64,000 nt of DNA. It comes from Woeseia sp. Lineage in GTDB: Bacteria; Pseudomonadota; Gammaproteobacteria; Steroidobacterales; Woeseiaceae. Location: positions 1-64,000 of the forward strand of contig JAJFKW010000001.1 of NCBI GenBank assembly GCA_021773015.1. Reading direction: 5' to 3'. How positions within the stretch are numbered: the first letter of the stretch is position 1; each line of letters starts with the position of its first letter. The notes below the pieces were generated by a model, which was not told the origin of the DNA, did no database searches, and saw only the letters and a list, made by a program, of their open reading frames with translations. Positions 50,836 through 61,029 of this stretch are shown in pieces. Position numbers and translations under genes: made by a program.

Positions 50836-51978
50836 TTACAGGGACACAACAGATTCTGTTTCGGCGCCTGCATAGTAGACCCATACGTTCTCTTCGCCGG
50901 ACAGTAGTTCAATGTACTTTGGGTGTACGAAAAGTGTTTCTCGTCCCGACTTGATCTCCTTGAGTACACCAATATCGCAGAGCTGCTTCAAATAGACAGA
51001 TGCGGTTTGCCGTTTGGCAACGCCAACATCTACAAGATTGCCGATGCGGCAATACGGCTGCTTGAATAGCGCCTCCACAAGTTCCCACGAATAGATCTTC
51101 GGCAGGCTTTTTTGAACAAATTCGCTGGTATGTTGCATGAGCTCACGAATTGCTTTTATTTTGTCGGTTGTCCATACGCTGGTTTGTTCGACGGCGTCCA
51201 ACATAAATAAAATCCATTCTTCCCAGGCTTGTTTTCGAGTCACTTCAAGTAGCAATCGATAGTAGTCACCTTTGTGCATAATTATATGCCGGCTAAGGTA
51301 AAGAATCGGCGAGTCGAGCAAATTTTGCTCGACGAGAAATAGTATATTCAGAATTCTCCCCGTTCGACCATTGCCGTCAGAGAAGGGATGAATAGCTTCG
51401 AATTGGTAGTGCTGTATTGCCATGCGGACCAGCGGATCGGTATCTGTCGCGTTGTGCATGAACTCTTGCCAATTATCTAGCTTTTGCTGCAGCAGTCTTT
51501 GACCTTCTGGAGGTGTGTATATGAGTTCCCCGGTTCCGCGGTTTTTAAGTCGCGTGCCCGAGTCCGCTCTAATGTCTAACTCCAGGTTTTTTATGGTGCT
51601 ACAGATTTGAATGGCCTTATCGGTTGTCAGCATACCTCGTTGAACCATTTTGGTACCTTCGTACAAAGCGGTCCGATAACGCAGTGCTTCCTTGGTCGCG
51701 GCATCCGCCTTATCTTCCGCGATGTCGGCAAATTCGAACAAGCGATCGGTTGTTGTAACAATATTTTCAATCTCTGAACTTGCCTGCGCTTCCAGCAAAG
51801 GGAGTGCATTGACAAGAACAGCGGCGTTCGGAATCAGTTCAGCGGCTTGCTTGAGCTCTGCCAGTGCGACACGGGCGTTTATGCATTTCTTGAGAATGTT
51901 TGTTGTTTCGGTTAACTCGACCGGCGGTGGCAAAGCAGGCAGGTCATTAAACGGTACGTTAGGATCAAAAACAGTCAC
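50836..51978 (-). CDS. Fic-domain protein (AMPylator type) with inhibitory helix
   Basis: A 380-residue protein resembling SoFic-type Fic enzymes. The active-site loop HPFSDGNGRTGR is complete (His 197 to Arg 208), so AMP transfer to a target hydroxyl is expected. An N-terminal SSEIEN (about 67-72) fits the [S/T]xxxE[G/N] inhibitory motif of class II Fic proteins, which blocks ATP binding until relieved. The C terminus is a winged-helix-like region (VDVGVAKRQTASVYLKQL), probably DNA binding. The start ATG 51978 lies about 120 bp from an array of dyads upstream. Targets are unknown. Confidence 0.92.
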   Translation of the reverse strand: MTVFDPNVPFNDLPALPPPVELTETTNILKKCINARVALAELKQAAELIPNAAVLVNALPLLEAQASSEIENIVTTTDRLFEFADIAEDKADAATKEALRYRTALYEGTKMVQRGMLTTDKAIQICSTIKNLELDIRADSGTRLKNRGTGELIYTPPEGQRLLQQKLDNWQEFMHNATDTDPLVRMAIQHYQFEAIHPFSDGNGRTGRILNILFLVEQNLLDSPILYLSRHIIMHKGDYYRLLLEVTRKQAWEEWILFMLDAVEQTSVWTTDKIKAIRELMQHTSEFVQKSLPKIYSWELVEALFKQPYCRIGNLVDVGVAKRQTASVYLKQLCDIGVLKEIKSGRETLFVHPKYIELLSGEENVWVYYAGAETESVVSL

Positions 51979-58560: not shown

Positions 58561-59217
58561 TTAGAAGTTGAAGTTTATGCCGAGCGATATCACCGGATAG
58601 GCCTTCAGCGCGTCGACCTCATCGATCAACTCTGAACGTTCTGACTCAAGCGAGGAAAGAAATACCGCGTCATTGGCGAGCAATCCGTCAGCAGTTAACG
58701 TAACGTCCGGATCGCCCTGCCATAGGACGCCGAAGTCCAATGACAGACCAACTCTGTTAGCGACTTCAAAATCAAAGCCTGCGCCAACATACGGCGAAGT
58801 GCTTGCCCAGGTCGTTTCGCTACGCAGCGTTCCGACTTCGTTCGCGGTGTAGACGATTCCACCAATTTCTACAGACGTGGCGTCATTGCTGACCAGATCA
58901 ATTCGATTACTGTTGGAAAAAGCGCCGACTGAGATGCGAAAAGGACTCAGTGGAAAACGGAAATTTGCGGTCCCATAAAAGGTTTCCAGGCCTAGCGTAC
59001 CGTCGTAGTTAACGCCAGCTTGTGATCCGGTGTCGTCATAGTCGTACTGATTGGCACCAAAGCGTACATCGATCCACTCAATTGGGCGCCAAGCAGCTTC
59101 AACACCAATGCCTAGCGTGCCCGCTTTCGCACCTATCCAGAAATTGTCGCCAGCAGTGACCGAACCAGAAATTGCGACCAACAAGCCTGCCAGCATTAAT
59201 TTACGAAAAGTACCCAT
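58561..59217 (-). CDS. Outer-membrane beta-barrel protein (opacity/OmpW-like fold)
   Basis: ATG 59217 (GGAG just upstream) begins a signal peptide cut near VTAGD, giving 218 residues. The mature protein alternates in beta strands: NFWIGAKAGTLGIGVEAAWR, WIDVRFGANQYDYDD, LGLETFYGTANFRFPLSPFR, ISVGAFSNSNRIDL, SPYVGAGFDFEV, VGLSLDFGVLWQGDPDVTL, and ends VISLGINFNF with the terminal Phe of outer-membrane barrels. It likely forms an 8-stranded barrel. A surface or periplasmic role is unknown. A terminator follows. Confidence 0.82.
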   Translation of the reverse strand: MGTFRKLMLAGLLVAISGSVTAGDNFWIGAKAGTLGIGVEAAWRPIEWIDVRFGANQYDYDDTGSQAGVNYDGTLGLETFYGTANFRFPLSPFRISVGAFSNSNRIDLVSNDATSVEIGGIVYTANEVGTLRSETTWASTSPYVGAGFDFEVANRVGLSLDFGVLWQGDPDVTLTADGLLANDAVFLSSLESERSELIDEVDALKAYPVISLGINFNF

Positions 59218-59466
59218 TGCTATCTCCGTATGCCCAAGCGTGGGCAAAAACTATCTGAGCGTAGATTAGAGCTCCTTCACAGTACGCGCTGTGAGCTGTA
59301 TCACAGGGCTGCAAGCTTGTATCGCGCAGAATCATCTGATTTGCGCCTATATCTGCACTAAAAACCACAATTTGTCGGCGGCGATGGGGGTAGATTTGAG
59401 TATGCTGATTGGGGCGCGAATGGCGCATTTTGATAGCAATGTTTACTCAACAAGGAGGTTGAGATC

Positions 59467-59655
59467 ATGAGACAGTTGACTGCAAAAGAAATTACACAGA
59501 TCGCGGGTGGAAATGAACATCAGTGCACCCCAGGCAATAGTATTGGCGGGGTATCCAACTTCCCCTCTATCGGGGGAGATCTGATTAACTTTTATGAAGG
59601 AATTGTGGCCGCAACATCGCATGTTATCGAACGGGTCGCGGGTGCTTTTGATTAG
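59467..59655 (+). CDS. Bacteriocin-like precursor with double-glycine leader
   Basis: The strongest ribosome-binding site in the window (AAGGAGGT) lies eight bases before ATG 59467. The 62-residue peptide opens RQLTAKEITQIAGG, the LT-x-x-EI-x-x-I-x-GG pattern of leaders cut by C39-peptidase exporters, predicting a 47-residue mature peptide starting NEHQC. The mature part has one Cys, is rich in Gly, Ile and Val, and could form an amphipathic helix (INFYEGIVAATSHVIERVAG). No Cys pair, so no disulfide. The end overlaps a CPBP protease gene on the other strand. Class II microcin-like or signalling peptide; no C39 exporter is in the window. Confidence 0.72.
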   Translation: MRQLTAKEITQIAGGNEHQCTPGNSIGGVSNFPSIGGDLINFYEGIVAATSHVIERVAGAFD

Positions 59656-60526
59656 CCGTTAACGGGGCCGGGGTGTGTTGCACCCCGGCGCTTTGATGAC
59701 GCAAGTAACACTGCGATTGTACTAAGAATGCGGCCAAGCCAAACGATGTTGCCGCCAATGCGAGGCCCAAGGTGCTCAAAATTGTGGATGTCGGAGGCAC
59801 TGGGTACCAGATTATCTGCAAACACTTCCAATCGACTATCGTCGCCAGATTAAACGTACAGTGGCTAATTACCGATGCCCATAAGATGCGTGAGTTCAAG
59901 TACTGGAAAGCAAAGAAAACACCGATGACCGTTGCGAATGGAATGCTGTAGGGATCATGAAATATGCCGAACAGGATCGCGGATATTACGATGGCCAGCC
60001 AACGGCCGTACTTCAATAGAATTTCCAGCAGGAATCCTCGGTTCACCAGTTCTTCGTATAGCGGAATTAGCATTGCGGAAACCAGCACGGTCATAGACAA
60101 AGTCATTGGCGGCGGACAGGAAAAGCCAAGCAGCGGGCCGATCGCGTCTCCAACATTTGCCGCGTAGCTACTGCTGAATGCAGTTTGAAAAGCAATCAAT
60201 CCCCAACCCGCAAGCCGCAGCGTTATGCCAAGCGAAATCGATACAAAAACGAGGCGCAACGTGACCTGACGCAGCGCAAAACGAGCACGAATAGCTGCCC
60301 AATTAGCGCGCAATATCGGGAAGGCTAGGGCGCCGAATAGCAACGGAACCAATAGCCAACTTAGCTGATTCGCGAACAATTCGCCGTAGCCTAAGTCTAA
60401 AAGTCGTAGATGGGTGAAGCTGCGGGCGAATAGCGCACAAGTCTGGAACAGCAATATCGCGAATATGGATGCGCTGAGCGCGGCACGTGTTGACGGCGGT
60501 AATCGCCGTTTCGAATCGCTTCTCAT
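59624..60526 (-). CDS. CPBP-family intramembrane glutamic protease (Abi/Rce1-like)
   Basis: A 300-residue membrane protein with about eight helices. The CPBP signature is complete: LYEELVNRGFLLE (Glu 158-159, Arg 163), GIFHDPYS (His 190) and ISHCTFN (His 222, Asn 226), the catalytic motifs 1-3. Bacterial CPBP proteins include bacteriocin self-immunity proteins and some peptide-processing enzymes. The coding region runs 32 bp into the 3' end of the double-glycine peptide gene on the opposite strand and across its stem-loop. That physical link suggests an immunity or processing partner. The C-terminal tail (VQHTPAPLTANQKHP) is hydrophilic and cytosolic. Confidence 0.87.
   Translation of the reverse strand: MRSDSKRRLPPSTRAALSASIFAILLFQTCALFARSFTHLRLLDLGYGELFANQLSWLLVPLLFGALAFPILRANWAAIRARFALRQVTLRLVFVSISLGITLRLAGWGLIAFQTAFSSSYAANVGDAIGPLLGFSCPPPMTLSMTVLVSAMLIPLYEELVNRGFLLEILLKYGRWLAIVISAILFGIFHDPYSIPFATVIGVFFAFQYLNSRILWASVISHCTFNLATIVDWKCLQIIWYPVPPTSTILSTLGLALAATSFGLAAFLVQSQCYLRHQSAGVQHTPAPLTANQKHPRPVR
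59667..59689. terminator. Stem-loop after the double-glycine peptide gene
   Basis: GCCGGGGTG-TGTTG-CACCCCGGC is a perfect 9-bp GC-rich stem with a 5-nt loop, 11 bp past the peptide stop codon. It is followed by a short GCTTTG, so the U-tract is weak. It lies inside the 3' part of the opposite-strand CPBP gene. Confidence 0.65.
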
Positions 60527-61029
60527 TTTTGCATCGCTTTCATCCTAGGTCCGACCTACCTGCGCCGCTATTGAGTCAAACAAACAATGTTGGCACGTAA
60601 ATAAATGTCGTGTCGATCTGCATAAATGTAAAGAATCAGGAGAAATATGCGCGAAAAGAAGGGTGGTGAGCGTGCCGCATTCTGCCAGTCACAGCGCGCG
60701 GTTACACCGCGGCAGTTGCATAATCGGCGGGCTGATAAATAGTACGACTGGTCGAAGTACTAATGAGGGACAGTCAATTTAGTCGCCGTCTTCCTCACCG
60801 ATAGAGCAATGTGAGCGATACAGGACTATTGCTTGACGGTTCGGCAGCGCGTCAATTTGACTAAATTCATATCATTGACCGCTGGCGTCTATTTTCGCGC
60901 GAATTATTTTCCTGTCTTTGGACGCCTTTGGAAGCGGCACTGGCAGAGGGCCAGTGTTATTGGTAAGTTAACTCCTCGGATGCGGGAATATCCGTGGGTG
61001 AGGCGCACTTCAAGGAACGAAAAACCGGC
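60527..61029. other. Intergenic region of about 500 bp without a convincing gene
   Basis: It holds the divergent promoters of the CPBP and DUF5658 genes. A plus-strand frame from 60833 that runs into the next gene in another frame has no family resemblance. A 5-bp inverted repeat (AGTAC...GTACT) near 60741-60761 and two related TCAATTT-GACT-type segments (60774, 60848) are visible but have no clear meaning. No RNA gene or transposase remnant could be supported. Confidence 0.5.

Follow-up and report, generated by a model that had tools for sequence, protein, structure and literature searches.

A conserved double-glycine-leader peptide and its CPBP-family neighbor in Woeseiaceae: components of a candidate secreted-peptide system

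Known peptide/CPBP systems and the Woeseia locus

Abi/CPBP proteins serve as immunity proteins for Gram-positive class II bacteriocins (e.g., PlnI and SkkI), where the CPBP gene lies beside that of a double-glycine (GG)-leader peptide and is usually co-transcribed with the bacteriocin. In Escherichia coli G3/10, the microcin S genes are ordered mcsS-mcsI-mcsA-mcsB, the MccS precursor has a mass of 11.67 kDa, and the CAAX-family protein McsI is reported to confer immunity (PMC3316575). The Cdz system of Caulobacter comprises two peptides exported by type I secretion, and a gene predicted to encode a CaaX protease lies close by; the CaaX region is described as dispensable for killing and immunity is assigned to CdzI (PMC5380434). 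A further type of association is reported for MrtJ, which adjoins a single target in proteobacteria, while the MYXO-CTERM target contains a conserved cysteine (PMC11980579). In a literature search that reached few subscription journals, we recognized no published GG peptide/CPBP pair in the lineages considered here.

We analyzed a 64-kb stretch of Woeseia sp. DNA (the window), in which a short gene and a gene on the opposite strand meet at their 3' ends. The features of this locus are as follows:

59452..59459, + strand: Shine-Dalgarno sequence AAGGAGGT preceding the peptide gene; its pairing with the anti-Shine-Dalgarno tail has a duplex energy of -13.5
59467..59655, + strand: gene for a double-glycine-leader peptide of 62 aa, from a family with the C-terminal core YEGxVxxxSHxIERVA
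59467..59511, + strand: leader MRQLTAKEITQIAGG, which ends in GG or GA among relatives
59524..59526, + strand: Cys20, the mature part's sole Cys; 38/38 Woeseiaceae-type peptides have exactly one post-leader Cys
59578..59652, + strand: conserved C-terminal amphipathic helix (AF2), 76% mean pairwise identity among 38 peptides
59624..59655, no strand: tail-to-tail overlap of 32 bp; the genes overlap in 11/39 loci
59667..59690 (about), no strand: hairpin just 3' of the peptide stop, here within the CPBP 3' end; likely a shared terminator
59624..60526, - strand: CPBP-family (Rce1-like) predicted intramembrane protease of 300 aa, Pfam PF02517, with EExxxR/FxxxH/HxxxN motifs plus Cys137 and Cys235

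The proposed system resembles microcin S in combining a GG-leader peptide, a CAAX/CPBP-family partner, an HlyD-type protein, and an ABC exporter, and the order of the microcin S genes is matched in four loci of other proteobacteria (L115, L116, L212, and L213). It differs in that the window-type peptide is about half the size of the MccS precursor and scores below the cut-offs of microcin models. Further differences are the strong conservation of the peptide, a CPBP gene that faces the peptide gene tail to tail, and, in the window genome, the placement of the parts at two separate chromosomal sites. Compared with the PlnI and SkkI systems, the window locus has its CPBP gene in convergent orientation, and of the two partners it is the peptide that is better conserved. 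Type I secretion (predicted here) of a peptide with a CaaX/CPBP gene nearby is shared with Cdz, and the pairing of a CPBP protease with a target of its own, here a candidate, is shared with the MrtJ/JDVT-CTERM and MrtX/MYXO-CTERM pairs. Unlike the MYXO-CTERM target, which carries a C-terminal transmembrane tag, the window peptide combines a GG leader with an amphipathic helix. Sorting of a lipidated cysteine as in MrtX was set aside as an analogy only, given that no C-terminal membrane helix of the MYXO-CTERM kind was apparent when the peptide was judged by its sequence.

The peptide family and its CPBP partner

A preliminary description of the window had reported an open reading frame (ORF) with a GG leader and the best Shine-Dalgarno sequence of the window, an amphipathic mature part, and a complete CPBP gene on the opposite strand that overlaps it by 32 bp and spans a stem-loop; each of these elements was recovered in our analysis. 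The leader, which is conserved in relatives, matches the published consensus M(R/K)ELxxxE(I/L)xx(I/V)xG(G/A) (PMC9200625) except at residue 3, where Gln replaces Glu, and this is the one single ORF in the window that fits the leader regular expression. The duplex energy of its Shine-Dalgarno sequence compares with a best value of -11.8 among 57 open frames of at least 150 codons, a set that takes the best start of each frame and includes spurious frames; the starts of most relatives are likewise preceded by a purine-rich Shine-Dalgarno sequence, as judged by eye and unscored. Leader removal would leave a mature part of 47 residues. In the AF2 model, residues 32-60 form a helix with block pLDDT values of up to 95 and the middle region is of low confidence. 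The hydrophobic moment of the C-terminal helix was reached by 0.7% of 5000 shuffles, and by sequence the helix bears the residues D, E, H, E, and R. Mature peptides of the family are mostly acidic, with charges from 0 to -10 and a median of -5 (41 peptides, leaving out L100, L113, and L114). The mature part encoded at locus L112 contains no Cys.

No Pfam or NCBIfam model matched the window peptide above its cut-off. When 15 family peptides were scanned, MccV was the best Pfam match (0.051), and the microcin models E492_microcin (13.4 bits against 50) and bacteriocin_sig (13.1 against 15.7) remained below their cut-offs. The model pheromone_VP1 (NF033772; cut-off 85 bits) matched four of the 15 peptides with a best E-value of 8e-5, and the one fully displayed match scored 12.8 bits; these matches probably reflect leader similarity and are unlikely to reach 85 bits, a score with which such E-values are hardly compatible. 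Searching solved structures with the peptide gave one weak match at 0.27, which we took as chance.

The peptide was detected at E < 1e-5 in 16 of 60 genomes searched (window genome included), and all 16 were among the 37 Woeseiaceae genomes. A scan for two short motifs in one genome per species, covering 84,980 species, yielded 43 loci, 40 of which encode a Woeseiaceae-type peptide; the exceptions are from Pseudoxanthomonas suwonensis J47 (L112), a betaproteobacterial MAG (L115; order presumably Burkholderiales, a guess), and a Lysobacter MAG (L116). Apart from this species-wide scan, the searches of broader groups covered samples of each group. Profile searches of 369 genomes of the class gave, as additional real matches, two from Woeseiaceae and none elsewhere, a third match at 0.003 lying inside a 1129-aa frame and being treated as chance; in 398 genomes of the phylum they returned the own genome alone. 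Within the family of Pseudoxanthomonas genome G424, 8/297 genomes matched at E <= 0.01; matches were approximately full-length in G424 and G598 (two loci), and we rejected the others as leader-only (five) or as lying inside a 673-aa frame (one). Within the order of G425, 4/300 genomes matched, with those of G425, G1122, and G1252 real by context and that of G1392 leader-only. Querying the window genome itself with the peptide gave no second copy at E <= 1, except for a match in a 657-aa frame. A mobile or plasmid-borne bacteriocin was also considered and rejected: the window peptide was unmatched in a plasmid collection and the profile was unmatched in viral contigs, the locus being syntenic instead.

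An alignment of 15 peptides, the window's included, contains 16 invariant columns, among them M1, R2, L4, E8, G14, C20, Y43, E44, G45, S51, E55, R56, and A58. Pairwise differences in the 21-codon core of 38 sequences were 0.176, 0.064, and 0.621 at codon positions 1, 2, and 3, respectively, and this pattern indicates that the gene is translated and under protein-level selection; all six Arg codons are used at the invariant Arg of the core. By these sequence comparisons, the peptide represents a genuine, conserved family that lacks a curated model.

The CPBP protein scored 66 bits against PF02517 (cut-off 22.4). Across 39 aligned CPBPs (L110 was omitted, another frame having been picked there), residues E158, E159, R163, F186, H190, and H222 are invariant, Cys137 and Cys235 are kept throughout, and N226 is present in 35 and replaced by Asp in the other four. 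The AF2 model (pLDDT 87.8) aligned with SpdC (VIA Z 13.0, rmsd 4.5, 213 residues aligned) and MmRce1 (4cad; VIA Z 12.4, rmsd 4.8, 213 aligned), the next row of the VIA listing standing at Z 6.5 over 62 residues, and Foldseek retrieved SpdC at E 8.8e-3. According to this model, the CPBP protein has the Rce1 fold; by the alignment its catalytic residues are intact, and protease activity is predicted. Two short modeled strands beside Cys137 and Cys235 suggest a disulfide between them. The CPBP profile gave no match among the sequences of solved structures, and the window protein scored below the cut-off of the MrtJ model (24.8 bits against 75).

A convergent CPBP gene adjoins the peptide gene in 16/16 peptide-positive genomes among the 37 Woeseiaceae genomes searched, and in 39/39 Woeseiaceae-type scan loci with enough contig, where the distance between the two stops ranges from -40 to +28 bp; the two counts share genomes and are not additive, and L100, the contig of which ends inside the peptide, is excluded from the gap count. 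The CPBP protein thus appears to be a genuine partner of the peptide, as had been suggested. Conservation of the two is uneven. Mean pairwise identity among 38 peptides was 76.0% for the C-terminal 24 residues, 60.3% for the leader, and 43.7% for the middle, compared with 37.4% for the CPBP protein, 70.3% for the neighboring FA_desaturase (which we take to be AlkB-like), and 78.7% for the last gene of the syntenic block, presumably SucA (gene sets of 23 to 38, leaving out L112, L115, L116, L100, L113, and L114). The corresponding values over 32 common loci were 75.4 (C-terminus), 38.0 (CPBP), 69.8 (desaturase), and 78.7 (SucA). Peptide and CPBP identities had a partial rank correlation of 0.37 after SucA and desaturase were accounted for, against -0.10 for peptide and desaturase, the pairs not being independent. 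A conserved peptide segment together with a conserved catalytic center in an otherwise fast-changing protease would show the pattern expected of a substrate and its protease, and such a pattern would fit degradation (i.e., immunity) and maturation alike.

A candidate exporter and related operons

PF03412 matches the window genome twice, at C1:3.10 and 3.24 Mb, both outside the window, in agreement with the earlier statement that the window lacks a C39 exporter. The protein at C1:3.10 Mb (L071) contains C39 and ABC domains (Pfam C39, 120.6 bits) with the catalytic Cys in the motif RADCALACL, and an HlyD-type gene precedes it. The other match, a C39-like ABC protein (L072), has Thr in place of the catalytic Cys and is followed by an HlyD-like ORF, as found by reading. 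The genes form no single cluster: on a contig of 3.60 Mb, the exporter lies at 3.10 Mb and the pair at 59 kb. Export through a distant gene, as envisaged in the preliminary description, is plausible, as this exporter and its HlyD-type gene co-occur with the pair. The same description had proposed searching the genome for C39 exporters and for similar leaders: the first exist, in the form of L071 with its catalytic Cys, whereas no second leader gene was found by profile at E <= 0.01, a search that unusual leaders could escape.

Using the C39 domain of L071 as the query (E <= 1e-6), we found the exporter in 16/16 peptide-positive and 4/21 peptide-negative Woeseiaceae genomes (Fisher 6e-7, shared descent ignored). 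Restricting the comparison to 22 good-quality Woeseiaceae genomes gave a table of 12/1/0/9, for which the P-value likewise ignores shared descent. G002 is the single exception of good quality, and next to its exporter lies another GG-leader ORF. Within genus g10, the exporter is present in the peptide-positive genomes G009, G016, G029, and G032, and absent from the negative genomes G020, G023, G026, and G035. Outside Woeseiaceae, it occurs in 5/23 genomes, all without the peptide.

We read 18 exporter loci of 3.5 to 14 kb each (the 16 peptide-positive ones, G002, and G027). The sequence cluster of the HlyD-type gene is represented at 16 of them and the catalytic-site Cys at all 18 (12 by regular expression, six by eye). 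At the G002 locus (L180, contig C28), a glycine-rich, microcin-like GG-leader ORF of 72 aa, MRVLTMNEVSAVSGAG..., lies at ~8.96-9.18 kb near the C39/HlyD-type exporter. In the 16 peptide-positive loci, a regular expression, which may miss unusual leaders, detected no GG-leader ORF beside the exporter. With no local cargo visible in these genomes, the window-type peptide is the obvious cargo.

Related peptides occur in operon-like order in other proteobacteria. At L115 and L116, which are close relatives, and at L212 and L213, the genes run in one direction: two GG-leader ORFs, a SHVIERVA-type peptide (ending TSHVIERVA, VSHVIERVA, or TSYVIGRVA), CPBP, HlyD-type protein, and C39 exporter. Pfam identified CPBP and HlyD in all four and C39 in L212 and L213; at L115 the C39 match and the peptide match are 2.3 kb apart on the same contig, and at L116 the C39 match of its genome falls, by coordinates, at the fitting place and frame. 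One of the two preceding GG-leader ORFs starts MKEL..EVL.IAGG and the other is Pro/Asp-rich with the leader end (V/I)SGG; at L213, the CPBP gene is followed by an additional GG-leader ORF. At L112 and L155, both from the Pseudoxanthomonas family, a small CPBP-like gene comes after the peptide. The products of these two genes are 43% identical to each other, give a PF02517 match below the cut-off (0.0024) and none, respectively, and lack EExxxR by reading; C39 matches in the L112 genome lie on other contigs. The partner at L162, from the same family, is a CPBP protein above the PF02517 cut-off. The peptide and CPBP genes are co-directional at L112, L115, L116, L155, L162, L212, and L213, and in such relatives the CPBP gene starts 3' of the peptide stop. 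The partners differ by subfamily, with a probability over the core of 97.3% for L116, 1.5% for L112, and 0.3% for L155. That the peptide lies beside a CPBP gene again in every layout is our strongest evidence for joint action of the two.

Possible roles of the peptide and the CPBP protein

On these comparisons, we consider it probable (roughly 85%) that the peptide, the CPBP protein, and the unlinked C39 exporter with its HlyD-type partner belong to one secreted-peptide system. A very strong ribosome-binding site would drive synthesis of the peptide, the exporter encoded at C1:3.10 Mb would cut its leader at Gly-Gly, and type I secretion would carry it out of the cell. The CPBP protein would reside in the inner membrane as a dedicated protease or binder of the peptide, probably acting at the conserved C-terminal helix, and its most likely job would be self-protection, the role reported for McsI in the microcin S system. 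Few targets of bacterial CPBP proteases are known; the pair exposes a candidate substrate, a likely recognition segment, a likely exporter, and a pattern of gain or loss.

Among the roles considered, we rank immunity first, on the precedent of microcin S, with signal maturation a close second. By analogy, the CPBP protein may provide self-protection against a microcin-like effector peptide, a reading to which we give somewhat less than an even chance. The microcin S order at L115, L116, L212, and L213 points toward it, and were it correct, immunity of the microcin S type would extend far past enterobacteria. A constant C-terminus alongside a CPBP protein at 37% identity would, however, be unlike a toxin/immunity arms race, and together with the mostly acidic charge of the mature peptides it makes the peptide a poor fit to an arms-race toxin. 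The chromosomal site is moreover syntenic, the layout in Woeseiaceae is convergent rather than an operon, the L112 and L155 partners are without EExxxR, and the exporter is also found in four peptide-negative Woeseiaceae genomes and 5/23 genomes outside the family.

Several of the same observations would suit a maturation or sensing protease that trims or releases an exported pheromone or surface factor, much as CPBP enzymes treat other substrates dedicated to them, a tenable role to which we assign about one chance in three. The C-terminal helix is conserved in a housekeeping-like manner, the catalytic set is invariant in 39/39 CPBPs (Asn226 in 35/39), inheritance is syntenic, and the peptide and CPBP identities are correlated as given above. 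MrtJ and its single JDVT-CTERM target are reported to be encoded in beta- and gammaproteobacteria as a pair of genes, one for the CPBP protein and one for its substrate (PMC11980579). Maturation is disfavored by the small partners lacking EExxxR and by the MccS-like operon order, which favors immunity; in addition, no shared sensor or regulator cluster was seen beside the exporter in the 18 loci read, and no obvious two-component pair was seen beside the peptide among the neighbor clusters, which were partly profiled.

A broader version of signal maturation, which we regard as rather unlikely, would be family-wide Gram-negative signaling by a near-frozen helix peptide that is exported by the unlinked C39 protein and processed or sensed by its own CPBP protein; Cys137, Cys235, and the peptide Cys may then form a redox or mixed-disulfide contact. 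Such signaling would define a class of CPBP substrates without a C-terminal transmembrane or prenyl tag. Woeseiaceae-group bacteria are reported to be widespread in marine sediment (PMC7082342), and if the peptide were a signal, it would represent peptide communication in a dominant, mostly uncultured group.

We think it improbable that the secreted peptide has a structural or biofilm role and that the CPBP protein merely clears misplaced peptide from the membrane. The peptide is acidic and conserved, and GG-motif secreted proteins are reported to be required for biofilm formation by Synechococcus (PMC4997328), but this role leaves the constant CPBP neighbor and the operon layout unexplained.

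Gene arrangement, hairpin, and synteny

The 60 nt following the window peptide stop fold with a z of -3.6 against mononucleotide shuffles. Across 45 loci (excluding L100), the same folds gave a median z of -4.0, with 35 at z <= -3 and four above -2, whereas control stretches 300 nt further on gave 0/45 at z <= -3 with the same type of shuffle. The hairpin is located between the two genes or, in overlapping loci, inside the CPBP end. Most simply, it would be a shared terminator; in co-directional loci it may act as a brake on CPBP expression. Antisense control through the overlapping layout had been suggested, and the 32-bp overlap and the hairpin within the CPBP 3' end would fit control of the CPBP gene by the peptide transcript as antisense RNA, which is very improbable: an overlap present in only 11/39 loci makes this unlikely as a general rule, and the seven co-directional loci, with the CPBP gene starting after the peptide stop, also argue against it.

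Equally slight is the chance that the peptide and CPBP genes are unrelated neighbors held by synteny alone. The entire neighborhood is indeed syntenic, comprising genes for an RF-1-domain protein, MFS, PLP decarboxylase, DAO, an outer-membrane protein, the peptide, CPBP, FA_desaturase, DUF5658, and SucA, as named by clustering and Pfam on one member of each cluster. Both genes are nonetheless missing together from five otherwise intact sites, and related peptides elsewhere again adjoin genes for CPBP or CPBP-like proteins from other subfamilies. The desaturase gene is present in 14/21 peptide-negative Woeseiaceae genomes, and 11 of those sites were read. In G020, G026, G035, G001, and G005, a gap of 158-308 bp (from one blastx match end to the other) separates the outer-membrane gene from the desaturase gene, and both the peptide and the CPBP gene are missing. 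Other genes lie between the outer-membrane and desaturase genes in G002 and G023, the outer-membrane gene was likewise not found in G030, G014, and G004, and the G007 site ends at a contig edge. The five intact sites indicate that, where this can be judged, the two genes are either present together or absent together.

Several further features of the neighborhood were recorded. The FA_desaturase gene follows CPBP in 39/40 Woeseiaceae-type loci, the remaining one being cut by a contig end; at 60527-60993 of the window, the FA_desaturase gene is missing at the site and the DUF5658 gene is next. An outer-membrane beta-barrel ORF adjoins the peptide in 33/44 clustered loci, and in the window it occupies 58561-59247 on the - strand with a weak CarO-like match (37.9 bits, cut-off 300). 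A Fic/DOC-family protein with Fic_N and SoFic-like C-terminal domains is encoded at 50839-51978 of the window, also on the - strand.
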